Of a DNA stretch of 64,000 bases, positions 11,594 to 29,060 are shown piece after piece; positions within the stretch are counted from its first letter, which is position 1; each line of letters starts with the position of its first letter. Source of the DNA: Deferrisoma camini S3R1 (GTDB lineage Bacteria > Desulfobacterota > Deferrisomatia > Deferrisomatales > Deferrisomataceae); the NCBI RefSeq assembly GCF_000526155.1, contig NZ_JAFN01000001.1:144824-208823 (forward strand), in the 5' to 3' direction. The position numbers and the translations under genes were made by a program. Under the pieces are notes generated by a model that did not search any database, was not told the origin of the DNA, and saw nothing but the letters and a program-made list of their open reading frames with translations.

Positions 11594-13705
11594 TCAGTCG
11601 CTGCCGCCTTTCGCTTTGTTCGCGAGCAGTCGGAGGGCCGGGCCGGGAGGTATGCCGAGGGTGTCGCGGAAGAACGCCTCCGCCTGCCGGAAGGTCCGGA
11701 GAGCCTCCACCGGGTACCCCCGGCGGATGAGCTCCTTCATTTTCAGCGCATACAGCCGCTCGGACATCGGGTTGACAGCCACGGCTTGGGAGAGGAGGTC
11801 ATTGAGGTCTCCCCGGAACCCGTCTCGGTCGGCCCGATCCGCCACCCCTTCCACCAGGCGCACGTGGAGGTGCCGGAGGGCTTCCCTCCGGCTCTCGATC
11901 ACGCCGTGGGAGCCGTCCCCCGACAGGAAGTCTCCTTGGTACAGCTCCAGGGCCCGGACCATCTCCCGGGCGGAGCGGTTGCGAAGTGCGGCACGGGCGG
12001 CCGTTTCGAACACGAGGCAGTCGGCGAACACGACGGAGCGGGAGAGGGAGAGCCGGCCGTGCTTCCAGTGGAGCCACCTCAAGGCCTCGGCTCCGGGGGG
12101 CAGGCCCACGACCCGTAGCCGGGCCAGAGCGGTTTTGAGGTTCGCGCGGGCCTGGTCGCCGAGGGCATCGGGCCACAGGAGCTCGGTCAGCCGGTCCACG
12201 GGCACCTTCTCTCCCCCCAGGGCGAGCAGGAGCTTCAGCAGTTGCTGGGTCCGGGAGGAGCGCCATCTCCGGTCGTACACGGTGTGGCCGAGTATGGTCA
12301 GGGAGAAGCCGCCCAGGCTGCGGATCTGCACCGGACGGTCCGGGTCGGGGATCGTCCACCTCGCCCCCGCCGGCCCGGTGCGGATCTCCAATCGGTCCAG
12401 CAGGCGCTGCGTGAACTCCGGAGGCCGGAAGGCCGACAGGAGGGGGCGCCCCCGAGGCAGTAGCTTTCGGACCCCATCCAGCAGTTTCCGGGCCTCATCC
12501 GTCTCGCCGCGGTCGGCCAGGATGGCCGCCCGGTCCAGAGCCGCCCCCTCGGCGAACAACACCCATCCCTGATCCTGGCAGGTCGCCATCGCCTCGTCCA
12601 ATCGGGCCGCTGCTTCCTCCTTCTCGTTGAGGTCGGCCAAGGCCAGGGCCTGGAGCACCCGGATCATGGTTTGGGTCGGCAGGCTTTCGGCCCGGGCCGC
12701 CGCCCGCTCCCCCCGCTCGGCATGGACCAAGGCCCGGTACGGCCGGCCCGCCCCCAGGTAGAACAGGCCCACCGAAAACTGCATGAGTGCGGCGAAGAAG
12801 TGGACCTGTTCGCCCACCGCAAGCTGCCGGACGCTGGCCTCGAGCAGGGGGACCTCGTCCTCGTGGCGGGCCAGGGAAGCGGCCAGTAGCCGGGCCCCCT
12901 GGAGCAGGAGCCGGACGGAGACCCGCCAGTCCTCGGGGGCCAGATCCACCCCGACGTTCCGAAGAGTCTCGCACGCCTTCCCCGGCCGGCCAGCCGTGCT
13001 CAACACGATCCCGAGCATGATCCTGTGGTACAGGCGGGCGTACGAGGTGCGTGGCGCCCGGTCCAGGAAAGGGGCGGTTTCCTCCAGAACGACCCCTGCG
13101 CGCTCCGTACGGCCCTGGTATGCCAGGGCCAGCGCCTGGAGGGTGGCGCCGTACAGGGTCATGGCGGCCGAGCGGGCCTCCTCCGCGGCCTGGCGCTGGA
13201 GTTCCAAGGCGGCCAGCGTCTGGTCCAGGTTCCCCTGGTGGAACAGGAGCATGAGCGCCCGGAAGGCGAGCGCGGAAGAGCGGGCCAGGGGGGAGAGATC
13301 CTTCCGCTCGGCGAGCCGGTCGATCCGATCGGCCCACGGGCGGGATCGGGACCAGTCCACCCCGAAGTCCCACAGGGCCGCTATCGCCAGCCCGCAGGCC
13401 GCGGCCGCCCCCTCGGCGTCCCGGTTCACCCGGAACATCCGGTACAGCAGGGTGACGTCCCGCAGCACCTGCCGCAGGTCGCGGTCTGCGGGTAGGGGAG
13501 ACGCGGCTCCTTCCAGGAGCAGGAGCCGCGGGGACAGGCCCGGGCTGCGCCGGGGACGAAGAGCAGCCATGTGCCGACGGATGGCGGGCACGTCCATCTC
13601 GAACCACCATACCAGCCCTCGCCGGGCGAGTTGGGCCGCGAACTCGTCCCACCTCTCCTCTTGGGCCAGGTCCCCAAACTCGGGGAGGAGATCCCGAGCT
13701 TCCAA
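11594..13705 (-). CDS. BTAD/SARP-like transcriptional regulator with TPR array
   Basis: The 703-residue product has a long helical N-terminal region (about 1-450) that looks like tetratricopeptide repeats. A winged-helix DNA-binding domain of OmpR type follows (about 465-560, with RSLGGFSLTILG and the helix-rich LLKLLLALGG). The end is a BTAD-like helical domain (about 570-690, with LYQGDFLSGDG and NPMSERLYALKMKEL). There is no P-loop, so this is a stripped-down relative of MalT/AfsR-type regulators without the NTPase. The start is TTG at 13705, with AGGAGG 7 nt upstream and a promoter-like sequence above it. It precedes the barrel-lipoprotein-giant operon on the same strand and is its obvious candidate regulator. 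The signal it senses is unknown. Confidence 0.85.
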   Translation of the reverse strand: MEARDLLPEFGDLAQEERWDEFAAQLARRGLVWWFEMDVPAIRRHMAALRPRRSPGLSPRLLLLEGAASPLPADRDLRQVLRDVTLLYRMFRVNRDAEGAAAACGLAIAALWDFGVDWSRSRPWADRIDRLAERKDLSPLARSSALAFRALMLLFHQGNLDQTLAALELQRQAAEEARSAAMTLYGATLQALALAYQGRTERAGVVLEETAPFLDRAPRTSYARLYHRIMLGIVLSTAGRPGKACETLRNVGVDLAPEDWRVSVRLLLQGARLLAASLARHEDEVPLLEASVRQLAVGEQVHFFAALMQFSVGLFYLGAGRPYRALVHAERGERAAARAESLPTQTMIRVLQALALADLNEKEEAAARLDEAMATCQDQGWVLFAEGAALDRAAILADRGETDEARKLLDGVRKLLPRGRPLLSAFRPPEFTQRLLDRLEIRTGPAGARWTIPDPDRPVQIRSLGGFSLTILGHTVYDRRWRSSRTQQLLKLLLALGGEKVPVDRLTELLWPDALGDQARANLKTALARLRVVGLPPGAEALRWLHWKHGRLSLSRSVVFADCLVFETAARAALRNRSAREMVRALELYQGDFLSGDGSHGVIESRREALRHLHVRLVEGVADRADRDGFRGDLNDLLSQAVAVNPMSERLYALKMKELIRRGYPVEALRTFRQAEAFFRDTLGIPPGPALRLLANKAKGGSD

Positions 13706-13856: not shown

Positions 13857-16800
13857 TCAGGGTCGGGACAGGGTCTGGAGGAAGCAGCCGGTGGAGCCGC
13901 TGGTGTCCCCGCTTTCCGGGGTGGGGGCCGGCTCCTCCGCGGTCACGGGCTCCTCCCCGGGCTCCACCGGGGTCAGGCCGGCCAGCTTGGCGAACGCCCG
14001 GGCAGCCTCCTCGGTGTGCTCCAGGATCTCGGCCTGGGTGGCGCCGATCAGGTCGGCCGGGGTCACCATGCCGGTGGTCTCCACCGTGGAGAAGTCGGGC
14101 GCCACGTCGTCGGTGTCGCCGTCGCGGTTCACGTCCACGGGGTGGATGTAGCCCACCTCGGGCTCGACCCAGATCTTGCCCTTGGCCACGAGCCCTTCGA
14201 AGTTCTCGATGGTCCAGGGCAGGAAGGTAACCGTGCGGTTCGACAGCCGGGCGTTCAGGACCACGTCCGGGTCGCCGCCGTAGACCGGCTCGGTGCCCTG
14301 GGCGTGGCAGTCCACGCACTGGCGGGTTGTGCCGGCCTCCACCACCCCCGGCGGGGGGACCATTTTCCCGGTGGTCGGGTCCACCCCGCCCAGCTTGTCG
14401 TAGTCCTTGGCCGCGCCCAACGCCTGAGATGCGGGAAGCACGTTGTGGGTTACGGTGAAATAGTGGGCCACGATGGCGAGCCGCAGGTTCGCGTCGTAGT
14501 TGGGTGAGGGCCGGCCGGCGTACTGGTCCTCCTTCTCCAGCACCGTCTTCAGGGCCGCCTTCACCAGGTCCAGCTCGGTCTCGTTGGAGATCTCGGGCCG
14601 CAGGTCGAAGTTGTCGTCCCACACGATCGTGGCCGGGTCGTACGCGGTGATCGCGCCGGACTCGTCCCGGGTGACGGAGCTCGAGATCAGCACCATGCCG
14701 ATCTGGTGGCGGCCGGGCATGACCTCCCGGGACACCGCGCCGGCCAGGATCGAGTTGAGCTCCCGGGGGGCCAGCACCCGCATGCTGGCCGGATCGTCGG
14801 GGTCGTAGACCACCCAGGTCACGGCCGCCACGGGGTTGCCCGGGTAGATCTTGATCTTCCCGTCCCGGTCGGGCTTCTTGTAGAGCACCGGCGTGAACTC
14901 GAAGTAGCTCTTCCCGTTGGCCGTGCGGAAGAACTCCGCCATGTCCGCCGGGTCGAAGTTCCCCTCGTCGTCGGGCACGGGGATCGTGGCCGAGCCGTCC
15001 GGGTCGGTCATCATGGTGTAGAACATGGCGTAGGGGTCCAGGGCCCGGTCCGAGCCGAACCCGGGCTCCTTGTCCTCCAAGCGCAGCTTCTGGGCCACCA
15101 GCGGGTCGGGCCCGTTGGGGTCGAAGTAGGCGATGGAGGTCACCACGTCCATCCCGAAGATCGGGTTCGACTGGCCGACCCACTGGAGCCCCCCGATCCC
15201 GTAGAACGGGGCCGCCGCGTAGTAGCCCGGCTGGGGGTCCTGGATGCCGAACGCGGCGAAGAACGAGAACGGCACCATCTGGGAGATGTCTCCCGGGTCG
15301 GCCGGGTTGGGCATGAACCGGGAGTCGAAGTTGTAGGAGAACCCCATGGAGTAGTCGAAGGCCCGGAACGGCCAGTACCTCTTGTAGGGGATGTGGCAGG
15401 TCTCGCAGGCCACGTTCTCGAAGTGGTCCGCCACGATCTCCTCGGACCCGAAGTTGTCCCGGTGGGCCAGGGTCATCTGGTCCAGGTTGTGGCAGTCGGT
15501 GCACACCTTGACCTTCTGGAAGTCCAGGTCGTTTCGCACCGTGCCGCCGGTGTCGATGCCCTTGCCGAAGTTGTGGTCGGGCGCGGTCGGCCCCTGGTCC
15601 TTGGACGCGTGGCAGTCCACGCACTCCACGCCCCGGGCCGCATGCACGTCGTAGCCGGCCAGGTCTCCCCGGCTCTTCCTCCCGGCCTCCACCTCCTCCA
15701 GGGCCTTGTCGTAGTTCTCCTCGCCGTCGTACTCCATCTTCCAGAAGGTGCCCCGCTTGGGGATGTCGGCCTTCATGCCCATCACGTCGGGCCGGATGTA
15801 CAGCCCCTGGTTCACGGGGTCGCGGAAGCCCACGTGGCACCGGCCGCAGATCAGGTCCCACTTGTGGCCGCCCGTGTCGTCGCTGGCGAGCAGGGGGGCT
15901 TTGGTGCCGGACTGGGCGGCGAAGAGCTCGAGATCGTCCGGGTCGTAGTAGGTCTGCACCGTGAAGTAGTTCTGCACCTCGTCCGGGACCTGGGAGAGGC
16001 TCACCCCGTCCTTCTTCACCAGCTTCACGTAGGCCAGGGGCACCCCGTCCCCGTCCAGGTCGAGCCCCATGAGCCCGCCCGTGGCCGCGTACTTGAAGTA
16101 GTAGCCCAGGAACTTGCGGCTGCCCCACACCTTGTCGCCGTTCGCGGCGGTCACGGCGTTCACGGCCGGGCTGTAGGCGTTGTGCATCTTGAACCCGCTC
16201 GTGCCGCCGGCCTCGTCGGGCTTGCCGCCCTCGACCATGGGGATCTTGACCGAGTCCCGGGTGCTCGCCACGGGCGAGTTGGGCGCCGCGTAGAACCGGC
16301 CGGGCTCGAAGGTGCCAGAGAGGGGGCTCGAGTACCGGTCGATCGAGAACACCTCGTACCCTTCGGGGATCTCGCCCGGGGTCGGGTACCGGCCCACCGA
16401 GATGGCCCAGATGTCGGCGTAGTCGTCCCGGGCCTCGTTCATCCTGGCGATCAGGAAGATCTTGAGCCGGGGCGCGTAGTTCTGGGCGTCCACCCCGTTG
16501 GCGGTGTGGAGGCGGTTCGCGTAGGGATCGAGGTGGCAGGTCAGGCACTCGGCCTCCAGCACCCCGCTCTCGCCCCAGTCGTGCAGGTGGGGGGCCGACA
16601 GGGCCGGGGAGGGCCCGCCGCCCATGAGGTCCCGGGCCATGTAGAACGGCGCCGCTCCGATGTCCTCCACGTCGTACCGGTAGTAGTCCCCGTTCCAGGC
16701 GCCGAACTCACCGGCCTCGATCCGGTCGCGGTTGGCCTGGAAGAACTCGTCGTACCGGTTGCCGAACCGGTCCACCTCGTAGGGGCCGCCGCCCATGTGG

Positions 16801-17318
16801 CACGAGGTGCAGGTGGCGATCTCGTCGGCCGTGCCGATGTCGAACCGGGTGGGGTCCGGATTGTTCTGTGCCGCCAACTGGCGGTACGAGGGCGGTCACC
16901 AGGCCCCGAACTGGCCGGGCGCCGTGATGTTGTACAGCGTGGGCAGGGTGGCCAGGAGCCCGTCCGGCCCGGCCAGCACCTTGCCCAGGTCGTCGGCGAA
17001 GCCGTCACCGTCCGAGTCCACCCGCTCGTCCAGCCCGAGCTGGAAGTGGTAGGCCGAGGTGATCTTCTCGTACGAGTGGCACAGCCCGCAGGTCTGCTTG
17101 GGGCTCATCGGCGGGCCGGAGACGAGGGCCCCTTCCTGGCCGTTGGCGGCCAGGGTGTCGCTTGCGTCCAGGTTGGTCCGCACCGGATCGCCCACGCCGT
17201 CGTGGTCGGCGTCCGAAAAGGTGCGGATCTCGATGGCCGGATGGGCCAGCGCCGGCGCGGCCGAGGCCAGCAGGCCGGGCAGCGCCAACGAGGTGAGGAG
17301 GGTCGGGATCTTTCTCAT
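13857..17318 (-). CDS. Octaheme c-type cytochrome with in-frame UGA, candidate selenoprotein (ExtKL-like)
   Basis: The frame starts at ATG 17318 (GGAGAGG upstream) with a signal peptide (LLTSLALPGLLASAAPALA). It runs about 141 codons with one heme motif (CGLCH), meets a single in-frame TGA at 16896-16898, and continues in the same frame to 13857 with seven more CxxCH motifs (CTSCH, CLTCH, CGRCH, CVDCH, CTDCH, CETCH, CVDCH). Full length is about 1,153 residues. The part after the TGA has no signal peptide and no good start, so two separate genes are unlikely. A hairpin at the right distance after the TGA fits a bacterial SECIS. From memory, Geobacter ext operons for selenite/tellurite reduction encode a multiheme (seleno)protein called ExtKL. 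A Ser/Thr/Gly-rich tail ends in GCFLQTLSRP. It is last in the operon after the porin and the 12-heme cytochrome, and is probably secreted or periplasmic. A nonsense mutation or sequencing error (TGG to TGA) remains possible. Confidence 0.8.
16868..16898 (-). promoter_or_regulatory. Candidate bSECIS element with its UGA codon
   Basis: Reading the minus strand, UGA (16898-16896) is followed after 11 nt by CCGCC-AGUU-GGCGG (16884-16871), a perfect 5-bp stem with a 4-nt loop. It is extended by G-C and U-A pairs below one A/C mismatch (16887-16868). The loop G lies 18 nt after the UGA. Bacterial SECIS elements need a short apical stem with a G near the start of the loop at about 16-37 nt. In DNA this rich in GC, chance hairpins are common. 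Confidence 0.5.
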
Positions 17319-17357: not shown

Positions 17358-18332
17358 TCAATACCCTTGGGGGTGGCACGCCAGGCACGAGGGGTCGGTG
17401 CGCCCGTGGCAGACCCGGCACGACTCCGTGTCCGCGGCCCCCTGGATCCGATGCCCCGAGGCGAGCCAGCCGTTCCGGGGGGCGTGGCTGCGGGGGGCCT
17501 CCCGGTGGCAGTCGGAGCAGAACGTGGCCGTGTGGCAGGCGCGGCAGGTGTCGCGGTCGTGGCGGGCCTCGAGGCCGTGGCTGCGGTCCTTCCAGCCCAC
17601 GGTGTGGCTCCGGGGCTTCTCCGTTCGGTGGCAGGTGCGGCACGCGTCCGGCCCGGGGTGGCAGGTCCGGCACACGGCCTCGGGCAGGTCCGTGCGCCGG
17701 CCGTGGCGCTGCTCCCACAGCCCGTCGTGGGAGGGGGGGCGTTCGCCCCGGCGGATGCGGGCGTGGCAGGTGGAGCAGTCGGTCGGCGCCTCGTCCCCGT
17801 CGTGGCACCCCAGGCACGTCTCCATCGTGGGAAACTCCACCGAGGCCAGGTTCTCGGCCCGCGGGGTGGGTCCGTGGCACCGGACGCAGTCCACGTCGGC
17901 GTGGGGCTCGTGGGCGAACGTCACGTCGGCGTAGGTGCGGCCCCGTGGGGCCTTGGACACGGTGTAGTCCTCGTCGCCGGAGCGGGTGTGGCACGTGAGG
18001 CACGCCTCGGAGGGGTTCGCCTCGTCGATGTCGTGGCACTCCTTGCAGGGCTCCATGCCGGTTCGAAGCCCCTCGTCACCCCCGTGGCAGTCGGTGCATG
18101 CTGCCTCCTCCGCATGGAGGGCGTGGGAGAACCGAAGGCCGGTCTCCTCCCGGCACCCGGCCAGCAGCGCTAGCGCCGCGCCAGCCGCCAACACTGCGAT
18201 GCGAGCCCGTCTTATTCCCCCAGCGCCGAAACCGGCGAGCCAGGGGGCCGCGCCCGGCTCTCCGCCAGGTCCCTTGCCCCCCCGCTCGGGGAGGTGAGTG
18301 CGCCCATTCGATTGCCGGCTGAGTAGCTTCAT
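17358..18332 (-). CDS. Dodecaheme c-type cytochrome lipoprotein
   Basis: The product carries twelve CxxCH heme-binding motifs in about 260 residues (CTDCH, CKECH, CLTCH, CVRCH, CLGCH, CSTCH, CRTCH twice, CRACH, CSDCH, CRVCH, CLACH). A lipobox LLAGC marks membrane anchoring. It lies between the porin gene and the octaheme cytochrome gene and would be the heme relay through or beside the porin, as in porin-cytochrome conduits of Geobacter. ATG 18332 (or 18338) follows the porin stop by only a few bases and has AGGGG upstream. From that start about 37 residues precede the hydrophobic signal core. This segment (18230-18300) consists of a GC-rich dispersed element also found in intergenic DNA, so the true N-terminus is uncertain. 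No convincing alternative start was found downstream. Confidence 0.85.
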   Translation of the reverse strand: MKLLSRQSNGRTHLPERGGKGPGGEPGAAPWLAGFGAGGIRRARIAVLAAGAALALLAGCREETGLRFSHALHAEEAACTDCHGGDEGLRTGMEPCKECHDIDEANPSEACLTCHTRSGDEDYTVSKAPRGRTYADVTFAHEPHADVDCVRCHGPTPRAENLASVEFPTMETCLGCHDGDEAPTDCSTCHARIRRGERPPSHDGLWEQRHGRRTDLPEAVCRTCHPGPDACRTCHRTEKPRSHTVGWKDRSHGLEARHDRDTCRACHTATFCSDCHREAPRSHAPRNGWLASGHRIQGAADTESCRVCHGRTDPSCLACHPQGY

Positions 18333-18341
18333 GGTCATCCC

Positions 18342-19679
18342 CTAGAAACGGACCGTGACGCGGGTCTCCACCGCGTGGATCTCCTCGACCCCGTAGAGCT
18401 CCTCGATCAGGTCGTCGGTGTCCCGGCGGTAGGTCAGATCCGCCGACCACCGCGAGCCGGGCCGGTAGGCGAGCCCCAGCTCCAGGCTTTGGGCCACCAG
18501 GTTCTCCAGGTCGTTGTTGATGTCCTCGTCCTTGCGGTAGTACGCGGCCGAGGCCACGAACCCGCGGGGCAGCCGCTGCTCGGCGTCCAGCGAGTAGGAG
18601 AGGCTTCGGGCCTCGGGGCCGTCCAGCCGGTCCTCGAGCCACCACGACAGGCCGGCCCGGAGAGAGAACCCCGGAATGCCCGGATCGAACACCCCGAAGC
18701 CCGCCTGCACCACGTCGAAGCTGGTGTTCGAGGCGCTCTCGTAGTGGTCCTCGTCGATCAGATCCCGCTTGGTGTAGGCGCCGCTCAGGGTCAGGTGGTC
18801 CCCCAGCCGCTGCTCCACGGCCAGCCGGTACTGGTTGTAGGGGGCCTGGCGCTCCAGGCTGAGGCGCTCCAGTCGGTACCGGCCGGGGTCGGCGTCCGCG
18901 GTGAAGTCCAGGAGGAAGTCGTCGTCCTCCTCGTTGCCCACCTTTTTGTACACGCTGGCCGTGATCTCGGTGCTGGTGGGGTCCCACCAGAGGGTGGCCG
19001 ACACCAGGGCCTCGCGCAGGTCGCCGTTCACCCACTCGGCGCTGGCTTTGGCCCAGGCGAGGTCGCGGAGCGTCTGCCGTACGGTCAGCCGCAGCAGGTC
19101 GTCGAAGTAGTCCAGGTAGTCGGCCCGAAGCCGGCCGCCCCAGGGAAGCCGGGCCTCGGCCGCCCCGCCCCAGGCGGCGTCCCGCTCCAGATCCTCGTAG
19201 TACTGCACCAAGCGGCCGCCGAAGGCCTCCACCGACGCCTCCACCGGCAGGGGCAGGCGCACGCGGGCCCCGGCCCCGTCCAGGTGCACGGGCTCGGCGC
19301 TCTCCCACGAGAACCGGCCGGCGGTGAGCTCCACCGCGCGCAGGGGCCGGGACACGAGCCCCAGGTCGTACACGAACAGGTGACTGCCGCCGGGAAACCG
19401 GTCCACCGAGCTGTAGAACACCGAGTCCGGCTCCTCCTGGCCCAGGTCCCACCGGAACGCGCCCGAGAAGAAGGCCCGGCTGTTCACGGGCAGGCCTTGC
19501 GCCTCCAGGACCAAGAGCTGGGAGCCGTACGCCCCCCGGTCGTCCTGGTCGGGGGCGGCGTCGGCCCACGACGCCCGCAGGGTGGTGCGGGACGTGCCGG
19601 AGAGGGTCCACGCTCCGGCTCCGCCGGCGCCCAGGCAGGCGGTCAGCCCAATGCCCAACGCGATCACGACTGGTTTCAT
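18342..19679 (-). CDS. Outer-membrane porin of a porin-cytochrome conduit (ExtI-like)
   Basis: The 445-residue product begins with a signal peptide (MKPVVIALGIGLTACLGAGG, cleavage near AGA-WTL). It then alternates short amphipathic strands throughout (for example RLSLERQAPYNQYRLAVEQRL and SWWLEDRLDGPEARSLSYSL) and ends in Phe (VRF), typical of a transmembrane barrel of 16 or more strands. ATG 19679 is chosen because GAGGA lies 5 nt upstream; the frame is open further but without a ribosome-binding site. Two multiheme cytochrome genes follow on the same strand, which identifies it as the barrel through which electrons cross the outer membrane. From memory it resembles ExtI of the Geobacter selenite/tellurite operon in context. 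Sequence identity could not be tested. Confidence 0.75.
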   Translation of the reverse strand: MKPVVIALGIGLTACLGAGGAGAWTLSGTSRTTLRASWADAAPDQDDRGAYGSQLLVLEAQGLPVNSRAFFSGAFRWDLGQEEPDSVFYSSVDRFPGGSHLFVYDLGLVSRPLRAVELTAGRFSWESAEPVHLDGAGARVRLPLPVEASVEAFGGRLVQYYEDLERDAAWGGAAEARLPWGGRLRADYLDYFDDLLRLTVRQTLRDLAWAKASAEWVNGDLREALVSATLWWDPTSTEITASVYKKVGNEEDDDFLLDFTADADPGRYRLERLSLERQAPYNQYRLAVEQRLGDHLTLSGAYTKRDLIDEDHYESASNTSFDVVQAGFGVFDPGIPGFSLRAGLSWWLEDRLDGPEARSLSYSLDAEQRLPRGFVASAAYYRKDEDINNDLENLVAQSLELGLAYRPGSRWSADLTYRRDTDDLIEELYGVEEIHAVETRVTVRF

Positions 19680-19733
19680 GGCGTCCTCAGGACCGGAAAA
19701 TGTGAGAAAAGGAACATGCCGGTTCCGCATACT

Positions 19734-19749
19734 TGCATGGCTCGTGCCA
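19734..19749 (-). promoter_or_regulatory. Sigma-54 (-24/-12) promoter of the conduit operon
   Basis: Minus-strand TGGCACGAGCCATGCA matches the consensus TGGCACG-N4-TTGCA at every defined position but one (A for the first T of the -12 box). The GG and GC dinucleotides have correct spacing. It lies 55 bp upstream of the porin ATG. Sigma-54 promoters need an AAA+ enhancer-binding activator, and a palindrome suitable as its site lies about 100 bp upstream. Confidence 0.7.
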
Positions 19750-19844
19750 CAGGGAACGGCACGGGGAGGATATCGAAAATACACACGGATATAAACGGCT
19801 TGCGACCAAGATCCGTCGCCGCCCCGGCTTGGGGAGGCGCGGTT

Positions 19845-19884
19845 TTGTTTCAAAGGTTTCGGGTGTTTGAAACAAGGTGAAACA
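19845..19884. promoter_or_regulatory. Upstream activator palindrome TTGTTTCAAA-N11-TTTGAAACAA
   Basis: TTGTTTCAAA (19845-19854) and TTTGAAACAA (19866-19875) are perfect inverted repeats with an 11-bp spacer. A third half-site, GTGAAACA, follows at 19877-19884. It sits about 95-135 bp upstream of the -24 element, the usual place for an enhancer-binding protein. The AT-rich perfect palindrome stands out in this GC-rich DNA. Confidence 0.6.
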
Positions 19885-19995
19885 CTGCCGTGAAAAATGA
19901 CCGGGCGGCCCCCATGCCTCCAGCCGGGGTGTTGGGACGCAGGTCTACCTGAAATTCAGGTTCCCGGCGTCTCAGCTTCCGATCGTCCTATCGGA

Positions 19996-20053
19996 AATCC
20001 CCCATCGGCCCTGGGGGGCCCTGCAACGGGGAGAGTAACTTTCCCTGAACCGG
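19996..20053 (+). repeat. Dispersed element A, copy 1
   Basis: The element has the layout AATCCCCCxTCGGCCC, an internal GGCC-type palindrome, then an ACGGGGAGA and GTAAC core. The same layout recurs at 20327-20386 (plus), 45222-45275 (minus) and 47001-47058 (minus), with a weak copy at 38237-38288. The best core is CAACGGGGAGAAGGGTAACG. All copies are intergenic. Confidence 0.65.
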
Positions 20054-20193
20054 GTAGCTGCGGCGGGGCATGGGTTTCAGGAACCGGAATTCAGCGGACA
20101 GGATACAGGGAAGGAACGACAGGCTTGATCCGGCGTCCGACGGCGTGCGGTCACAACCTGTCCACTGGAATCTGTCTTCTGCCCCCTGATTCG

Positions 20194-20277
20194 CAGGCCC
20201 CATGCCCCCCCGAGACCGTGAGGTAGTGTCAAAGAGGCGGGCCATACTTGGAACACTCTGAAATCAAGTAGGTTTTC
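20194..20277 (+). repeat. Dispersed element B, copy 1 (CGAGACCGTGAGGT)
   Basis: About 80 bp align with 38131-38212: CAGGCCCC, then CGAGACCGTGAGGT, a CAA(A/G)GAGGCG block, CTTGGAA and finally GGTTTTC or GGGTTTC. Both copies lie between a tandem-repeat or GC-rich element and a following gene. Confidence 0.55.
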
Positions 20278-20280
20278 ATG

Positions 20281-20315
20281 CGTCCTAGCGTCCCAGCCTC
20301 CCAGCGTCCTAGCGG
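20281..20315. repeat. 8-bp tandem repeat tract
   Basis: Four degenerate octamers in phase: CGTCCTAG, CGTCCCAG, CCTCCCAG, CGTCCTAG. The same octamer family occurs in many other intergenic gaps of the window. Confidence 0.75.
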
Positions 20316-20326
20316 AAGTTACATAG

Positions 20327-20386
20327 AATCCCCCCTTCGGCCCTGGAGGCCTCTACGATGGAGAAGGGGAACGTGCGTTGGTCCGG
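20327..20386 (+). repeat. Dispersed element A, copy 2
   Basis: This is the closest plus-strand match to the copy at 47001-47058. It shares CCCCCTTCGGCC, then GGAGAAGGG and ACGTGCGTTG. It lies upstream of the chemosensory operon. Confidence 0.65.
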
Positions 20387-20497
20387 CGCCGTTTCCGGCG
20401 GCAGGGCAAGGCCGGCCGGCGCCCGGGCTAAAGCCGCGGGGGGGCCACGCCGATCCGTAGCCCGAGTGTACAGAGCCGTTTGCGCGCGAGGATGGTC

Positions 20498-21463
20498 ATG
20501 CCGTTGGAAGGCACACTGAGCTACCGGGACCTGGCGCATCTCCTCCAGGTGGTCGGCGCCTCGAGGAAGTCGGGCGTGCTGGAGATCCGGTACGAGGACC
20601 GGCTCGCCCGCCTGGTGTTCCGGGACGGCCGGCTGATCCGGGCCGAGTCGAACCAGCGGCATCCGGAGCTGGGGGAGCTCCTGGTGCAGGCCGGCGCCCT
20701 GACGAGCCGGGATCTCCAGCGGGCGCTGGGACGCCAGAGCGCGGAGGGGGAGGAGCGCCGGATCGGGACCCTCCTGTGCGAGGAGTTCGGGGTGGCACCG
20801 GAGACGATCCAGGAGGTGCTTTCCCGCCAGTTCCGGGACATCGTGTTCGAGGTGCTCCGGTGGCCGGGCGGGACGTTCCGGTTCGAGTTCGGCGAGCCCG
20901 ACGAGGTGATGGACCGGTTCTCCCTAAACCCCTCGGCCTTCATCCTGGACGTCGGGATCCAGGCGGGGTTCCTGGCGGAGGAGGGGCTGGCCCGGGAGGA
21001 CGCCACCCTCGACTCTCCGCGGGTCGTGGTGGAGCTCGGCGATCCCCGGTTGCGGGACGCGTGCGCCCAGATGTGGAGGCGCAAGCGCAAGAAGGTGGTG
21101 GTCGTCCCGGACCCCGGCCGGCTCGCCACCGTGTTGGGGGACTGGCCCACCGAGGCCCCGTCCCCCTGGGTGATCACCGGCATCGGCCCGGAGCCGGGTG
21201 AGGAGGCCTGGAGCCGGATCGAGGCGATCCGCGCCCTGCAGCCCGCCTGCGTGCTGGTGGTGGTGGGGGCCTGTCGGGACGCCGGGGTGCGGGTGCGGGC
21301 CGCCGACGCGGGGGCCGACGCCTACGTGCCGGCCCCGTGTCCGGCCGATCTGGACGGCCCCCATGCCGAGGCCCACCTGGACGTGTTCCTGCTGCAGCTG
21401 CAGCGGGCGGTGGAGCACGCAGCCGGGGTCGAGGAGCCTCGGGCCGGAGAGGCCGGGGCATGA
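20498..21463 (+). CDS. DUF4388-domain protein with a receiver-like C-terminus
   Basis: The 321-residue product starts with a DUF4388/PATAN-type domain (MPLEGTLSYRDLAHLLQ, then GVLEIRYEDRLARLVFRDGRL). A helical middle region resembles the DUF4388-associated output region (LGELLVQAGALTSRDLQRALG and FGVAPETIQEVLSRQFRD). From about residue 195, a Lys/Arg run and VVVVPDPGRL begin a segment that looks like a degenerate response-regulator receiver (ending AADAGADAYVPAP), without a clear phospho-acceptor. ATG 20498 is preferred because GAGG lies 6 nt upstream; ATG 20492 is possible. DUF4388 proteins often accompany signalling systems in Desulfobacterota and Myxococcota. Its stop overlaps the cheA start (ATGA), so it is the first gene of the chemosensory operon and probably feeds into it. 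Confidence 0.85.
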   Translation: MPLEGTLSYRDLAHLLQVVGASRKSGVLEIRYEDRLARLVFRDGRLIRAESNQRHPELGELLVQAGALTSRDLQRALGRQSAEGEERRIGTLLCEEFGVAPETIQEVLSRQFRDIVFEVLRWPGGTFRFEFGEPDEVMDRFSLNPSAFILDVGIQAGFLAEEGLAREDATLDSPRVVVELGDPRLRDACAQMWRRKRKKVVVVPDPGRLATVLGDWPTEAPSPWVITGIGPEPGEEAWSRIEAIRALQPACVLVVVGACRDAGVRVRAADAGADAYVPAPCPADLDGPHAEAHLDVFLLQLQRAVEHAAGVEEPRAGEAGA

Positions 21464-23508
21464 ACTGCGTGCCGGACGAGAACGTCCAGGAGTTCCTGGC
21501 CGAGGCCGAGGAGATCCTGGACCGGCTCGCCGACGACCTGGCCGAGCTGGAGCAGACCCCCGAGGGAGACGAACCCGACCCCGAGGTGGTCAACAGCATC
21601 TTCCGGGCCGCCCACAGCCTGAAGGGCATCTCGGCCATGTGCGGCTTCGGCCAGATCACCGAGGTGGCCCACAAGACCGAGACCCTGTTGGACGGTGTGC
21701 GCATGGGCCGGGTCGGGTGCACCCGGCCGGTGATGGACCTGCTCTACGAGAGCCTCGACCTCCTTCGGAATCTGTGCTCCCGCCTGGCCCAGGGCCAGGC
21801 CCCGGAGGACCCCGGAGTGCCGGCGTTTGTGGAGCGGCTGATCCGGGCGGCCGAGGGGGGGGCGGGGAGCGACGAGGACGGCCTGGCCGCTTTGGGGCTC
21901 GGAGACGAGGTCCTGGCCGTGCTCACCGAGTACGAGCGCCACCGCCTCGAGGCCACCCTGAAGAACCCCAACCGGACCCTGGTCCGGGTGAAGGTTGGGT
22001 TCCCCTTCGAGACCTTCGACACGGACCTGGAGGCCCTGAACGCCACGCTGAAGGGCCTGGGGGAGATCATCTCCACCCTGCCGGGCACCGGCGAGGGCGC
22101 CCCGGATCGCATGGAGTTCGAGCTCCTGGTGGGCCTCAAGGCCGATCTGGAGGAGGCGCGGGCCGCGGTGGCCGCGCACGGGGCCCAGGTGGAGGAGCTG
22201 GCGCCGCCGGCGCGGCCGACTCCCCCCCCGGCCCCACCCCCTGCCTCGTGCCCGGCCGAGCCGCCCTGCACCGGGGCCCCGGCCGCACCCGAGGCGTGCC
22301 GGCCCCCGGCAGAGGGGGTGCGGAGCTTCAGCCAGTCGATCCGGGTGGACCTGACCAAGCTCGATGCGCTGATGAACCTGGTGGGCGAGCTGGTCGTGGC
22401 CCGCAGCCACATCCACCTGGTGATCGACCGGCTGCGGCGGGAGCAGGGGCTCACCGGAGCGGTGATCGAGCTGGCCAAGGCCCAAAAGGACCTGGACCGG
22501 CGGCTCACCGATCTTCGGGAGGCGGTGATGGACGTGCGCATGGTGCCCCTGGGCCAGCTGTTCTCCAAGCTCCAGCGCACCCTTCACAAGATCCTGCGCA
22601 CCACCGGCAAGGAGGTGGACCTGGAGATCCGGGGGGCCGACACCGAGATCGACAAGCTGATCGCCGAGGAGCTGGGCGACCCCCTGATCCACGTGATCCG
22701 AAACGCGGTGGACCACGGCATCGAGCCCCCGGACGAACGGGAGGCGAAGGGCAAGCCCCGGCGGGGCCGGATCGACCTGGTGGCCCACCAGCGGGGGAAC
22801 CACGTGGTGATCGAGGTGGCGGACGACGGGGCGGGCATCTCGCGGGAGCGGGTGCTCCGGAAGGCCGTGGACCGGGGAATGGTGGACCCGGACGCCCACC
22901 TCACCGACAAGGAGGTGCTCGACCTGGTGTTCGAGCCCGGTTTCTCCACCAAGGACCAGGCCACGGAGATCTCCGGCCGGGGGGTGGGCATGGACGTCCT
23001 GCGGAAGAACATCGCCCGGCTGTCGGGCATGATCGAGCTCAGCAGCGAGGAGGGCCGGGGGACGCGGGTGACCATCGTGCTGCCGATCACCATGGCCATC
23101 ATTCAGGCCCTGCTCGTCCGAGCGGGCACCATGCGGCTGGCCGTGCCGCTGAACAGCGTGCTCGAGACCCTGTCCCTGGCGGAGCAGGAGGTCGACCGGA
23201 TCGAGGGCCGTCCGGTGCTGCGGCTCCGGTCCGACACGATCCCCCTGGTGCGGCTGGACCGGGCCCTGGGGGTGGATCCGGGCTCGGAGAACGGGGCGGG
23301 CTACGCCGTGGTGGTGGGGGTGGCGGAGAAGCGGCTGGCCCTGATGGTGGACGAGCTGCTCATCCAGCAGGACGTGGTCATCAAGAGCCTGGGGTCCCGG
23401 CTCAAGGGGGTACCGGGCATCGCCGGCGCCACGGACCTGGGGGACCAGCGCCCGATCCTGGTGGTGGACGTGGCGTCGTTGGTCAAGGAGGCGGAGGCCC
23501 ATGCCTGA
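21460..23508 (+). CDS. cheA: Chemotaxis-type histidine kinase CheA
   Basis: The 682-residue product has all CheA modules in order. The HPt domain has the phospho-acceptor His52 in AAHSLKGIS. A linker and P2-like region (about 150-250) is followed by a Pro-rich spacer. The dimerisation helices carry LDALMNLVGELVV. The HATPase domain has an N box (HVIRNAVDHGIEPPDE), a G1 box (VADDGAGI) and a G2 box (GRGVGMDVLRKNI). A C-terminal CheW-like domain completes it. It lacks a fused receiver domain. The ATG overlaps the previous stop by 4 nt and the 3' end overlaps the cheW gene by 8 nt, indicating translational coupling. In the cytoplasm it would phosphorylate CheB and a response regulator that is not encoded nearby. 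Confidence 0.95.
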   Translation: MNCVPDENVQEFLAEAEEILDRLADDLAELEQTPEGDEPDPEVVNSIFRAAHSLKGISAMCGFGQITEVAHKTETLLDGVRMGRVGCTRPVMDLLYESLDLLRNLCSRLAQGQAPEDPGVPAFVERLIRAAEGGAGSDEDGLAALGLGDEVLAVLTEYERHRLEATLKNPNRTLVRVKVGFPFETFDTDLEALNATLKGLGEIISTLPGTGEGAPDRMEFELLVGLKADLEEARAAVAAHGAQVEELAPPARPTPPPAPPPASCPAEPPCTGAPAAPEACRPPAEGVRSFSQSIRVDLTKLDALMNLVGELVVARSHIHLVIDRLRREQGLTGAVIELAKAQKDLDRRLTDLREAVMDVRMVPLGQLFSKLQRTLHKILRTTGKEVDLEIRGADTEIDKLIAEELGDPLIHVIRNAVDHGIEPPDEREAKGKPRRGRIDLVAHQRGNHVVIEVADDGAGISRERVLRKAVDRGMVDPDAHLTDKEVLDLVFEPGFSTKDQATEISGRGVGMDVLRKNIARLSGMIELSSEEGRGTRVTIVLPITMAIIQALLVRAGTMRLAVPLNSVLETLSLAEQEVDRIEGRPVLRLRSDTIPLVRLDRALGVDPGSENGAGYAVVVGVAEKRLALMVDELLIQQDVVIKSLGSRLKGVPGIAGATDLGDQRPILVVDVASLVKEAEAHA

Positions 23509-24040
23509 CCGGACCGAGGCCTTGGCCGCGTGGCGGGCCCGGCTCCGGCAGGTGCTGGACGCCGAGGCCCTGGTCGAGCCCGAAGAGGAGGCCCCCGAAA
23601 CGCCCGCGGTTCGGACGGAGCTGCTGGAGGTCGAGGTTTCGGGCGAGCGCTACGGGTTGCCGGTGGAGTGCGTCGCCGAGATCCTCCGGCCCCGGCCGAT
23701 CACCCCCGTGCCCCGCACCCCCCCCTGGGTGCTCGGCATCGCCGGGCTTCGGGGCGTGGTCCTGCCGGTGGTGGACCTGGCCCTGCGCCTGGGGCTGGAG
23801 CCGGGCCCGGAGTCGCGCCACCAGAGGATCGTGGTGGTGCGGGACGGCGAGGAGCTCCTGGGGTTCCGGGTGGACCGGGTGGTGGGGGTGGTTCGGCTCG
23901 GTCCGTCCGAGGCGGCCGAGGAGGGGACGAACCGATTCCTGCGGGGGATGGGCAGAGATCGGGAGGGCCGCACGCTGGGGCTGCTGGATCCGGAGGCTCT
24001 GTGCGAGTTCCGGGTGGGTCAGGAGTGGAACGCCGCATGA
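23501..24040 (+). CDS. cheW: CheW-like coupling protein 1
   Basis: The 179-residue product has an N-terminal acidic extension of about 40 residues. A CheW domain follows (LLEVEVSGERYGLPVECVAEILRP, GIAGLRGVVLPVVDL, GFRVDRVVGVVRL). It would couple receptors to CheA. It overlaps cheA by 8 nt and the second cheW by 4 nt. Two adjacent, diverged CheW genes suggest that each serves one of the two receptors encoded next. Confidence 0.9.
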   Translation: MPDRTEALAAWRARLRQVLDAEALVEPEEEAPETPAVRTELLEVEVSGERYGLPVECVAEILRPRPITPVPRTPPWVLGIAGLRGVVLPVVDLALRLGLEPGPESRHQRIVVVRDGEELLGFRVDRVVGVVRLGPSEAAEEGTNRFLRGMGRDREGRTLGLLDPEALCEFRVGQEWNAA

Positions 24041-24507
24041 GCGAGGGGAGGCTGGAGTTCCTGTGCTTCGACGTGGGGCGGCGGCGTTTCGCCGTCGACA
24101 TCCGGGTCGTGCGCGAAATCCTCCGGCCCCGGCCGCTGACCCGGGTGCCGGGGGCCCCGCCCACGCTCCGGGGGGTGTTCAACCTGCGGGGCGAGCTGAT
24201 CCCGGTGGCCGACGTCCACCGGATCCTGGGCGAGGTCCCGCCGCCCAGGGCGGGCGAGGAGGCCAAGCTGCTCGTGGTGCACCCCGGCGGACGGCCGTTC
24301 GGGATCGAGGTGGACCGGCTGGCGGAGGTGGAGTCGGTTCCCCTGGATGCCCTGGCCCCGGTGCCCGGGTCGGAGGAGCCGGGCGCCAGCCTGGTGGTGG
24401 CCATGTTCCGACGCACCGACGCGGCCGAGGACGTGGTGCTGGTCCTCCGGGCCGGCGCGCTCCTTCCGGAACCGGTGGTCAAGGAGGTGACCCATGAAGG
24501 GGTCTGA
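24037..24507 (+). CDS. cheW: CheW-like coupling protein 2
   Basis: The 156-residue product is a single CheW domain ([55 protein letters not shown]). It shares the motif [13 protein letters not shown] with the corresponding EILRPRPITPVP of the first CheW, so the two are probably tandem duplicates. The start ATG overlaps the previous stop (ATGA) and the 3' end overlaps the next gene by 14 nt. Confidence 0.9.
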
Positions 24508-25912
24508 CGTTCGGTGGTGGGCCGCGGGGGGCGTGTTGGGGGCGGTGTGCGCCGGGGCCGGGGCCGTGGTCGGGCCGTGGGCCGCCGTGGGGGCGCTGGT
24601 GGTGGGGGCCGGGATGGCCGCGCGGTGGAACCGTATCACCCGCGACGCGGTGGAGGAACGGGAGCGGGAGCTGGCCCGGGCCGCGGCCGATCCGGCGGCG
24701 GAGCGGCCGGCGTGGCTGGAGGACCTGGTGACCGAGCTGAACCGGACCCGGCAGGAGAAGGTCCGGGTCGAGACCGTGGCCGCGGCAGCCCAGGCCGAGG
24801 CGGCCGCGGCCCGCGAGGCGGGTGCGGCCGAGGCGGCCCGGCTCCGCAAGGCCGTGGCCGAGGTGCTCGGGCAGTTGGAGGAGTCCCTGGGCAACGGCGG
24901 GGAGGAGAACCCCTGCCACGCGCTCGACCCCATCCTGTCGGACCTGACGGCCCACGCGGAGGAGCAGCGGGCCAACGTGGAGCGGTCCGTGCAGACCCTG
25001 CAGGAGGTGCTGGCCGGCCTGGGGGACGCGGCCCGGCAGTGGGCCGACACGGCCCGGGCCCTGGAGACCTTTGCCTCGTGGTACCGGGAGGCGGGCCACG
25101 CCTTGCCCACCCTCGCCGCGGTGGCCGAGGTGCCGGCCGAGGCGCCCGCCCTGGAGGAGCTGGCCGAGTCCGTGGGGCCGGCCGTGGCGGGGCTGGAGGC
25201 CTGCGTGCAGCGGTTCGACCGGCTGCGGCAGAGGTGGGACGAGGCCCTGGCCGCGATCGGCGCCCTGGGGGAGCAGGTCCAGTCCGTCGGGTCGATCCTG
25301 AACGTGATCGAGGACGTGACGGAACAGACCAACCTCCTGGCCCTGAACGCGGCGATCCTGGCGGCCCAGGCCGGGGAGCATGGCCGCGGGTTCGCGGTGG
25401 TGGCCGACGAGATCCGAGACCTGGCCGAGCGCACGGCCGAGTCCACCAAGGAGATCGGAAGCCTGATCGAGGCCATCCAGACCGGCTCGGCCCGGGCCGT
25501 GGCCCTGCTCGACGACGAGCGGGGAGCCCTCCACGAGGGGGTGGGGGCCCTGGAACGGGCGGTCGCCAGGACCCAAGGGTGGGCCGAGGCCGCGGCCGCG
25601 GCCCGGGACGAGGTTCGGGGGCTGTTGGAAAAGGCCCGGGCGCCCCTGGAGCGGGCGAAGGAGGCGGTGCGTGCCTGGGGTGAGGCGCCGCCCCTGCCCC
25701 GGCCGCCGGCGGTGCCCGAGGTGCCCCGGGACGAGGAGGGAACGGGGCTCAACCGGGTCCAAGAGCTGTGTGAGGAGGGGGCGTTCCTGGTGGGACAGCT
25801 GCGGGACTCGGTGGCCGAGGCGGCCGACGAGATGGGCCGCCGGCTGGGCGGGGCGGCCCGGGCCGCGGCCGCCCTGCGGGCGCTGGCGGACCAGGGGGAG
25901 GCGCAGGGATGA
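24494..25912 (+). CDS. Methyl-accepting chemotaxis-type receptor without a sensor domain
   Basis: The 472-residue product has two short hydrophobic segments (about 8-43) forming a membrane hairpin. A long charged coiled coil follows (about 45-260). The conserved receptor tip is at about 268-325 ([48 protein letters not shown]). The return helix is Ala-rich and interrupted by a Pro-rich stretch (about 395-412). There is no periplasmic or PAS sensing domain, so it may sense membrane state, act through a partner, or structure the array. It overlaps its neighbours by 14 and 4 nt. Methylation-site pentapeptides are not obvious. Confidence 0.85.
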
Positions 25913-28026
25913 GGAGCCTCCGGGTACGCATAACCGCGGCCGTGGCCGCCGTTCTCCTGCTGGGCAGCGGCACGGCCTTCGTGTGGTACGCCGTCCACCG
26001 ATATCAGGGGGTGGAGGCCGAGTCGGTCCACTACGGCCGGTCCCTGGCCGACGGGCTGGCCGGCGCGGTGGAGGCGAGCCTGCTTCGGATGGACACGGAC
26101 CGGTTGGAGGAGACGCTGTCCGCCATGGCCCAGACCGGGCTGTACGACGCCGCGGCCGTGGTGGGCCGGACCGGCCGGATCCTGGCGGCCTTCCCGCCGC
26201 TTCCCGACCGGGTGGATCCCATGGCCGAGCCCCGCTGCGCGGGATGCCACGGCCGCCGGCCCCCCCTGCCCTACGAGGAGCTGGACCGGTCGGTGGCCGA
26301 CCGGCCGGTGGTGCGGGTGTTCCGCGCCATCGCCAACGGTCCCGCGTGCCAGGGCTGCCACCCCGCGTCGGACCGGGTCCTGGGGTATCTGTTCCTGGAC
26401 GCATCGGTGGCGAGCCCGTACTCCCGGCTGCTCCGGGAGGCCTGGACCGTGCTGGCGGCCGGTGCCGGGACCATCGCGGTGGTGGTGCTGGGGGTGTACG
26501 GGGTGTTGCGCTTCCTCCTCACCAAGAGGATGGAGCGGCTCGAGGAGATGGTGGACCGGTTCGAGGCCGGCCTGCCGTTGGAGGACCCGGAGGAGGAGCC
26601 CTCGGACGAGCTCGGCCGCATCGGTGCGGCCCTTTGCCGGGCCGCCCAGCGCAGGCGGGCGGTCCTGGCCGAGGTCTCGTCCCTGGCGGCCACCCTGCGG
26701 GAGCGGGGGGTGGAGGTTCAGCTGGCCCTGAGCCGTCTGCGCGAGGGGGTGGAGCGGGGCAAAGGGGTGGCCGGGGCGGTGCTCGCCGCGGTTCAGGGCC
26801 TGGACGAGGCGCTGGAGGAGACCCGCTCCCACCTGGACGCGATCGCCTCGTCCACCAGCGACAACTCCACGAGCCTGGTGGAGATGTCCGCCAGCATCGA
26901 CGAGGTGGCCGGCAGCGCCGACGAGCTGGCCCAGCAGGTCTCGGCAACGGCCGCGAGCGTGCTCCAGATGGTCCAGTCCATCGGCGAGGTGGCCGAGAAC
27001 GTGGAGGGCCTGGCCCGGGAGACCGAGGCCACGGTCTCGTCGATGAGCCAGATCGAGGCCTCCACCCGCCAGATCGAACGCAGCGCCCGGGACGCGGCAG
27101 GGTTGGGGGTGCGGGTGTCCGAGGCGGCCGAGGAAGGGGTGCGGGCCGTGGAGGCCACCCTCGAGGGGATCCACGACTCCTACCAGGTCATCCAGGACAC
27201 GGCCCGGATCACCGGGGACCTGGCCGAGGCCAGCCGGAGCATCCAGAGGGTGGTGAAGATCATCAACGAGATCAACGACAAGACCAAGCTCCTGGCCCTG
27301 AACGCCGCCATCATCGCCGCCCAGGCCGGGGAGCACGGCCGCAGCTTCGCCGTGGTGGCCCACGAGATCCAGGGGCTGTCCGACCGCACGGCCGCGAGCA
27401 CCGGCGAGATCTTCCGGATCGTGCGGGGCATCCAGGAGCAGGCCGAGGCGGCCAACGAGGCCGTGGCCCGAGGCCAGTCCGCCACCGCCCGCAGCGTGGA
27501 GCTGGCCGAGAGGGCCGGCCAGGCCCTCCGGCACATCCTGGACACGGCCCGCACCGCGAGCCGGATGAACCAGCAGATCCTCGAGGCCACCGAGGAGCAG
27601 GCCCGGGGCAGCCAGAACGTGGTGGGCTCGATGCAGCAGGTGGCGGCCATGGTGGAGCACATCCGCCAGGCCGCACGGGAGCACCGAGAGAGCGGGGACC
27701 TGGTGGGCCAGTCCACCGAGATCATGCGCAACCTCACCGAGCAGGTGAAGCTGGCCACGGCCGAGCAGGCCGAGGTGAGCCGGTACATCTCGGACGCCAT
27801 CTCCGCCATCGACCGGAACCTGCAGGACCTGCTGGGGGCCGTGGCCAGGGAGCGGGAGGAGACCGAGCGGATCCTCGGCCACATGCATGAGCTGCGGGCC
27901 CGCAGCGGGGAACAGGAGTCCGGGGTGGAGGAGGTGGAGACGGTCATCCGCGAGCTCCAGACCCAAATCGACGGCCTGGAGCGCAGGGCCCAGGCCCTCC
28001 TGGGCGGACGGGGGGCGACGGCGTGA
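25909..28026 (+). CDS. Methyl-accepting receptor with periplasmic di-heme c sensor domain
   Basis: The 705-residue product has a transmembrane helix at about 8-28, a periplasmic domain, and a second helix at about 178-203. The periplasmic domain holds two heme-c motifs, CAGCH (110-114) and CQGCH (147-151). A HAMP-like linker and a full signalling domain follow, with the tip at about 455-510 ([36 protein letters not shown]). Heme-c chemoreceptors of this type are known from Geobacter and relatives, where they sense redox potential or small ligands. Here it is the only receptor in the operon with a sensing domain, so it is probably the input of the whole pathway. Start and stop overlap the neighbouring genes by 4 nt each (ATGA). 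Confidence 0.92.
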
Positions 28027-29060
28027 GGAAGGCCCGGATCCTGGTGGTGGACGACAGCCCCTACGTGCGGCGGTTCTTGCGGGAAGCGCTGGAGCCCGAG
28101 CCGTGGGTGGCGGCAGTCGAGGGAGCCACCAACGGCCAGACCGCCCTGGCCAAGGCCCTGCACGCGCCCCCGGACCTGGTGACCCTCGACCTCCACATGC
28201 CGGTCATGGATGGATTCACCTTCCTGCGGCTGTTCCGGGCCCGGTTTCGGGCGCCGGTGCTGGTGGTCAGCTCCCACGCCGACCTGGAGAACGTGGAGCG
28301 GGCCATGGAGCTGGGAGCCAACGGCTTCATCTCGAAGCCCGAGGATCCCTACCGGAACCTGGACGCCATCGTCGAGGAGGTGAGGGCCAAGGCCCGCAAC
28401 GCCTTGGAGCTGCGGGTCCCCCGGGCCGAGGACGGGGGGGCGGGCCGAGGCCGGCACCCGCCCCCCCGGGACTTCCCGGTGATCGCGATCGGCGCCTCGT
28501 CCGGGGGCCCCCCGGGGCTCCAGTACCTGCTCTCGGCGCTGCCCCCCACCCCCCTTGCCGCGGTGCTGATCGCCCAGCACATGCCCGCGGGGTTCACCGA
28601 GGCGTTCGCCAAGCGGCTGGACCGGGTGCTGCCGTTTCCGGTGCGGGAGGGCAGGGAAGGGGCGGCGGTGGGCCCCGGAGAGGTGTGGATCGCGCCGGGG
28701 GGGCGGCACCTGACCGTGGACCCCGGGGGGCGGCTGCGGCTGGAGGACGGGGCCCAGAGCCTGTACAGCCCCAGCGTGGACCGGCTGTTCGAGACCGCGG
28801 CCGCGGCGTTCGGGGCCCGCCTCACCGCGGTGGTGCTCACGGGAATGGGCCGGGACGGGGCGGCCGGGGTGGAGGCGGTGAAGGCGGCGGGGGGGGCGGT
28901 GATCGCCGAGTCGGAGAACACCGCGGTGATCCACGGTATGCCCCGTCAGGCCGCCGCCACGGGGTGTGTGGACGAGGTGCTGTCCCTGCCCGAGATCTCG
29001 TTGCGGCTGCTGGAGCTCGCCCGGGGGGAACCCCTCACCGGATCCACAGCCCTCGGGTGA
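28023..29060 (+). CDS. cheB: CheB protein-glutamate methylesterase
   Basis: The 345-residue product has a receiver domain with phospho-acceptor Asp56 (LVTLDLHMPVMDG). A short linker leads to the methylesterase domain, with catalytic Ser in GASSGGP (about 159-160), His in QHMP (about 186) and Asp in TGMGRDGAAG. It would remove methyl groups from receptor glutamates once phosphorylated by CheA. It is the last gene of the operon. No CheR methyltransferase is encoded in this cluster, so the opposing reaction must come from elsewhere. Its 3' end overlaps the convergent DUF6178-like gene by 26 nt. Confidence 0.95.
   Translation: MRKARILVVDDSPYVRRFLREALEPEPWVAAVEGATNGQTALAKALHAPPDLVTLDLHMPVMDGFTFLRLFRARFRAPVLVVSSHADLENVERAMELGANGFISKPEDPYRNLDAIVEEVRAKARNALELRVPRAEDGGAGRGRHPPPRDFPVIAIGASSGGPPGLQYLLSALPPTPLAAVLIAQHMPAGFTEAFAKRLDRVLPFPVREGREGAAVGPGEVWIAPGGRHLTVDPGGRLRLEDGAQSLYSPSVDRLFETAAAAFGARLTAVVLTGMGRDGAAGVEAVKAAGGAVIAESENTAVIHGMPRQAAATGCVDEVLSLPEISLRLLELARGEPLTGSTALG

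Follow-up and report, generated by a model that had tools for sequence, protein, structure and literature searches.

Transcriptional control of outer-membrane electron conduits is, to our knowledge, poorly known outside Geobacter and Shewanella. A porin-cytochrome operon of Deferrisoma camini S3R1 raises the question of which promoter would serve such a conduit, which upstream sites would govern that promoter, and which protein would bind them. The operon lies in a stretch of 64,000 nt (NZ_JAFN01000001.1, positions 144,824–208,823 of the forward strand), termed the window below; coordinates without a prefix are those of the window.

The upstream DNA of the operon in this genome (G000, 4.24 Mb) was compared with that of two congeners, G001 and G002, whose porins are 96 and 95% identical to the query, and of the same-family member G003, whose porin is 56% identical. 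The comparison also took in order-level relatives, including G004 and G005, with porins just 27–30% identical, as well as G009 and G010 (40%). The G002 assembly is 81% complete and consists of 380 contigs. Searches for activator orthologs covered 39 relatives and then 395 genomes of the phylum.

The operon and its probable selenocysteine cytochrome

The conduit genes and the regulator gene downstream of them are as follows.

18342–19679, minus strand: predicted outer-membrane beta-barrel (porin), 445 aa, with signal peptide; first gene of the operon
17358–18338, minus strand: periplasmic 12-heme c-type cytochrome, 326 aa, with 12 CXXCH motifs and Cytochrome_C7 and CIII Pfam matches
13857–17318, minus strand: surface multiheme cytochrome with 8 CXXCH motifs and an in-frame TGA at 16896–16898
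11594–13705, minus strand: BTAD (SARP-like) regulator gene (PF03704), downstream of the conduit

The gene order, porin, 12-heme cytochrome and surface cytochrome, is that of an operon likely to encode an outer-membrane electron conduit. This assignment is likely rather than proved, because the barrel call rests on a structural model of moderate confidence (mean pLDDT 70.6, strand-rich) and on modest similarity, the nearest solved folds being outer-membrane barrels with modest TM-scores only. The porin has no Pfam match. In the read-through surface cytochrome, an MtrC/MtrF-like domain scores 31.1 bits, barely above the cut-off of 30.

The surface cytochrome is almost certainly a selenoprotein, in which the TGA is probably read as selenocysteine. 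The in-frame TGA is kept in G001, G003, G009, G010 and the distant G004. In the first four of these, the DNA that follows it, including the hairpin CCGCC-AGTT-GGCGG, is nearly invariant, although the proteins are just 57–97% identical. A tRNA-Sec gene was found in all six genomes searched. The stability of the SECIS-like hairpin is ordinary (z -0.41); its support comes from conservation. Multiheme cytochromes that contain selenocysteine are known in general (PMC5877670, PMC13188914). The Deferrisoma protein did not match the ExtKL selenocytochrome model, and an Rfam search of the window returned no match.

The putative sigma-54 promoter element and the upstream half-site array

The following elements lie upstream of the porin gene.

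19734–19749, minus strand: putative sigma-54 -24/-12 element TGGCACG-AGCC-ATGCA (TGGCACGAGCCATGCA), one mismatch to TGGCACGNNNNTTGCA
19845–19885, minus strand: array GTTTC-N5-GTTTC-N8-GAAAC-N4-GAAAC, from the alignment of G000, G001 and G002
19883–19879, minus strand: half-site one, GTTTC
19873–19869, minus strand: half-site two, GTTTC
19860–19856, minus strand: half-site three, GAAAC
19851–19847, minus strand: half-site four, GAAAC

The first-pass annotation described a near-consensus -24/-12 element here, and this element is present about 54–70 bp upstream of the porin ATG (19679). Its GG and GC dinucleotides have the 10-bp spacing of the TGGCACG-N4-TTGC context. It is the sole match in the window with at most one mismatch to the consensus. 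A motif match alone is weak evidence, because at this threshold the genome holds 66 sites versus 93 for the reversed control, which is no enrichment. Shuffled upstream regions (150 bp before the gene) reach the combined place, orientation and score of the element in about 0.1% of cases. It is also kept in G001, G002 and G003 as TGGCAYG-N4-NTGC, with G003 reading TGGCACG-AAAC-GTGCT. The gene rpoN is present in G000–G003 and is encoded in the query genome at C1:1081980–1082456 (PF04552, E 1.7e-61). The predicted transcript of the operon starts at about 19723, the ribosome-binding site of the porin is GAGG, and a search of the porin upstream region for a sigma-70-like promoter found none. A short inverted repeat, GGAAC-CGGCAT-GTTCC, occupies 19711–19726 of the minus strand at the predicted start, and the 5′ leader stretch GTTCC-TTTTCTCAC is largely kept within the genus.

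Farther upstream, the reported palindrome TTGTTTCAAA-N11-TTTGAAACAA is exact at 19845–19875. Its near edge and the -24 box are separated by 96 bp, in agreement with the earlier estimate of about 100 bp, and the additional half-site noticed beside it is GTGAAACA at 19878–19885. Shuffles of the window never yield the palindrome, even with 3 mismatches allowed, and a genome search that tolerated up to 3 mismatches gave this one copy alone. A fourth half-site, CGAAACC, was overlooked in the first pass and lies inside the palindrome “spacer”. The palindrome thus consists of halves two and four of a larger array, with half three between them, and the additional half-site is half one.

The alignment of G000, G001 and G002 supports the array of four half-sites, rather than the palindrome, as the conserved unit. 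Invariant positions number 17 of 20 within the half-sites and 27 of 89 in the spacer that leads to the promoter (p 9e-6, Fisher test), and in G001 the two middle halves are altered symmetrically, from GTTTC to GTTGC and from GAAAC to GCAAC. The array is a single site in its own genome, with orthologous sites in G001 and G002. The remaining upstream DNA of G003 can scarcely be aligned; TGTTTCA and TGAAACA flank differently arranged half-sites there. The outer half-site stands 134, 135, 136 and 135 bp away from the -24 box in G000, G001, G002 and G003, respectively.

Looser versions occur in the two order-level relatives G004 and G005, at array-to-promoter distances of 122 and 111 bp. The gap before the porin contains GTTTC, GCAAC, GAAAC and GGAAC in G004, and GTTGC, GAAAC, GTTGC and GAAAC in G005; shuffle p-values for such loose half-site variants are optimistic because the variants were picked after the data had been seen. 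The G005 gap also holds a -24/-12-like element, GGGCACA-TGAA-TTGCT, and the G004 gap a weaker one, TGGCTTC-CTTC-TTGCA, for which the shuffle p is 0.08 and near which lies another candidate. The array and the -24/-12 element are both missing upstream of the porins of G009 and G010.

The array has the form of an enhancer (UAS), with inverted half-sites some 80–200 bp upstream that are conserved with the promoter. The enhancer-dependent architecture claimed in the first-pass annotation is supported for the promoter and the upstream sites, which are conserved across diverged genomes, and its single palindrome gives way to four half-sites. No published GTTTCA/TGAAAC activator site was found in a search of the literature, and no support was found for a PrpR-like identity of the array. 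Other TGTTTCA..TGAAAC pairs in the genome are parS or one site that resembles a ribosome-binding site and start codon. The intergenic region at 19900–20480 exceeds its G002 counterpart by about 440 bp and carries a diverged 39-nt direct repeat (19994, 20326).

The candidate activator and competing explanations

An activator unlinked to the operon had been predicted, and no sigma-54 activator domain was found in the 64-kb window, out of about 30 genes with this domain in the genome. A genome scan with the palindrome, suggested as a way to both the regulon and the activator, matched only the palindrome itself. The activator candidate came instead from the neighbourhoods of relatives. Immediately before the porin gene of G004 and G005, on the same strand, stands an activator gene that is an ortholog (71 and 69%, respectively, over about 550 aa) of the following gene of the query genome.

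C1:22657–24327: candidate activator, 556 aa, with PAS, sigma-54 AAA+ and Fis HTH domains; behind nusB, about 140 kb from the operon

The domains span residues 121–228 (PAS), 248–415 (AAA+; PF00158, 236.6 bits) and 508–542 (Fis HTH; HTH_8, 53 bits). The Walker motif, GAFTGA and the C-terminal Fis HTH of an enhancer-binding protein are all found. Moreover, ESGTGKE, GAFTGA and an identical recognition region, SRTTLWRRMRDLGIR, are kept in all five genomes that have the gene, and in all five it lies behind nusB.

The distribution of the gene follows that of the array. Orthologs occur in 5 of the 395 phylum genomes (G000, G001, G003, G004 and G005), and each of the 5 has an array-bearing operon, although these counts are not independent events because the genomes are related. 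The N-terminal 250 residues have orthologs in G001, G004, G003 and G005 only (97, 64, 60 and 58%) across the 39 relatives and the 395 genomes, and other matches reach at most 40% over one PAS domain. No ortholog is present in G009 and G010, whose operons lack both the array and the -24/-12 element. In the incomplete G002 assembly the ortholog was not found, though operon and array are present. Taken together, these comparisons suggest, with a probability of roughly 75%, that the operon is under a sigma-54 promoter and the four-half-site array, with the product of C1:22657–24327 as the most likely activator.

The promoter and array could be real and another of the roughly 30 activators could bind, one candidate being the response regulator at C1 ~1817000, which in G009 and G010 has an ortholog (68–69%) some 2 kb upstream of the conduit. 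This is unlikely, as those two genomes lack array and -24/-12 element before the porin and have an apparent tRNA gene between regulator and conduit, and only the nusB-linked activator adjoins array-bearing operons and tracks them.

It is more improbable still that the array is bound, independently of sigma-54, by a repressor or by the linked BTAD protein, whose gene directly follows the cytochrome genes. SARP proteins bind direct repeats about one helical turn apart, and the array repeats, at 9–10 bp, are comparable with that spacing. However, the BTAD protein is disfavoured because its co-conservation with the array fails: the gene occurs in G000 and G001 only, is absent from 16.9 kb that surround the operon and array of G003, and is 72% identical between G000 and G001, versus 96% for neighbouring genes. 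The far-upstream position of the array, its fixed distance from the -24/-12 element and the negative search for a sigma-70-like promoter in the region also speak against this explanation.

Very improbable is a degenerate parS bound by ParB or a relative: TGTTTCA is a ParB half-site, the array shares GTTTCA with parS, and TGTTTCACGTGAAAC, which matches published parS TGTTTCACGTGAAACA (PMC5450999), has two copies near 3.18 Mb in this genome and is present in relatives too, but parS consists of two half-sites with a 2-bp centre, which no array spacing fits, and the G001 half-sites drift (GTTGC, GCAAC, GGAAC) while its parS sites are exact. The parS-like TGTTTCACGTGAAACA copies lie at G000:C1:3180288–3180303 and 3183388–3183403, and their half-site identity with the array is probably a coincidence.

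The nusB-linked activator is given no known name, because its scores for the named equivalogs NifA, NtrC, NorR, PrpR, FhlA and ZraR are all under the NCBIfam cut-offs (NifA, 385 vs 529 bits). A multiheme cytochrome gene, unlike those of the conduit, comes next after it in G000 and G001 (L179:7586–8476; C1 ~21585–22475) and is a possible second target. No array was seen beside this gene, and neither it nor the conduit was found near the G003 activator. Autoregulation was considered and rejected, since the surroundings of the activator gene in G000, G001 and G003 showed no array and no -24/-12 element of good quality.

Proposed mechanism, known systems and neighbouring genes

The porin-cytochrome operon would be transcribed from the sigma-54 promoter at 19734–19749 of the minus strand. 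A hexamer-forming enhancer-binding protein, most likely the C1:22657–24327 product, would bind the four GTTTC half-sites (about -125 to -160), reach RNA polymerase at the -24/-12 element by DNA looping, and open the promoter through ATP hydrolysis once its PAS region has detected an intracellular signal, which is probably redox or metabolic. In this scheme we infer binding and activation as well as the transcript start and the nature of the signal. Conserved Cys residues of the PAS region (VC..VF...ECPF) make a redox or metal input possible. With the conduit tied to sigma-54, its expression probably depends on the intracellular signal that the PAS domain reads.

The arrangement of promoter, enhancer and activator is ordinary in kind, and the assignment of activator, site and promoter is specific. 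The unlinked activator of the first-pass annotation now has a particular candidate gene, and the triple is concrete and open to in vitro testing without host genetics. A narrower proposal, that the selenocysteine conduit is controlled by an activator dedicated to one operon, with operon and nusB-linked activator gene separated by about 140 kb and recognition helix and array kept, is put forward tentatively, at slightly less than even odds.

One-component sigma-54 activators of Desulfovibrio vulgaris have regulons that comprise one to four operons, with multiple half-sites; DVU2956 has three, and DVU3142 has been discussed as the regulator of an octaheme cytochrome (ohcBAC) electron transport system (PMC4641369). 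The Deferrisoma case appears analogous in its small regulon, in the recognition of its activator through co-localisation in relatives, in half-sites upstream of a -24/-12 element and, as for DVU3142 and ohcBAC, in a multiheme electron-transfer operon as the putative target. It differs in the order to which the organism belongs, in its half-site, GTTTC, and in an activator gene that stands apart from the target in the Deferrisoma genome.

Among the reported RpoN-regulon results for Geobacter sulfurreducens, omcB responds to RpoN overexpression (PMC2725144), and an IHF study gives an activator-promoter separation of usually 100–140 bp in Geobacter (PMC7962754). To the extent of the available text of these reports, Deferrisoma resembles G. 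sulfurreducens in the putative link of sigma-54 to cytochromes of extracellular electron transfer and in the activator-promoter distance, and no activator paired with a specific site for a porin-cytochrome conduit came up in that text. The candidate shares AAA+ and Fis-HTH domains with NtrC, ZraR and NifA, and among solved structures ZraR (1ojl) and a Nif-specific regulatory protein (9qq6) are its best relatives. Unlike activators of that type, it has a PAS N-terminus and no receiver, and it falls below their equivalog cut-offs.

A divergent chemosensory cluster (20480–29060; DUF4388, CheA, CheW-like, two MCPs and CheB) adjoins the conduit in this genus and is not found beside it in G003. An ARAGORN call of tRNA-Tyr at 28733–28808 lies inside the cheB coding sequence and is likely a false positive. 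The MCP encoded at 25909–28026 has CXXCH heme motifs (CAGCH and CQGCH).
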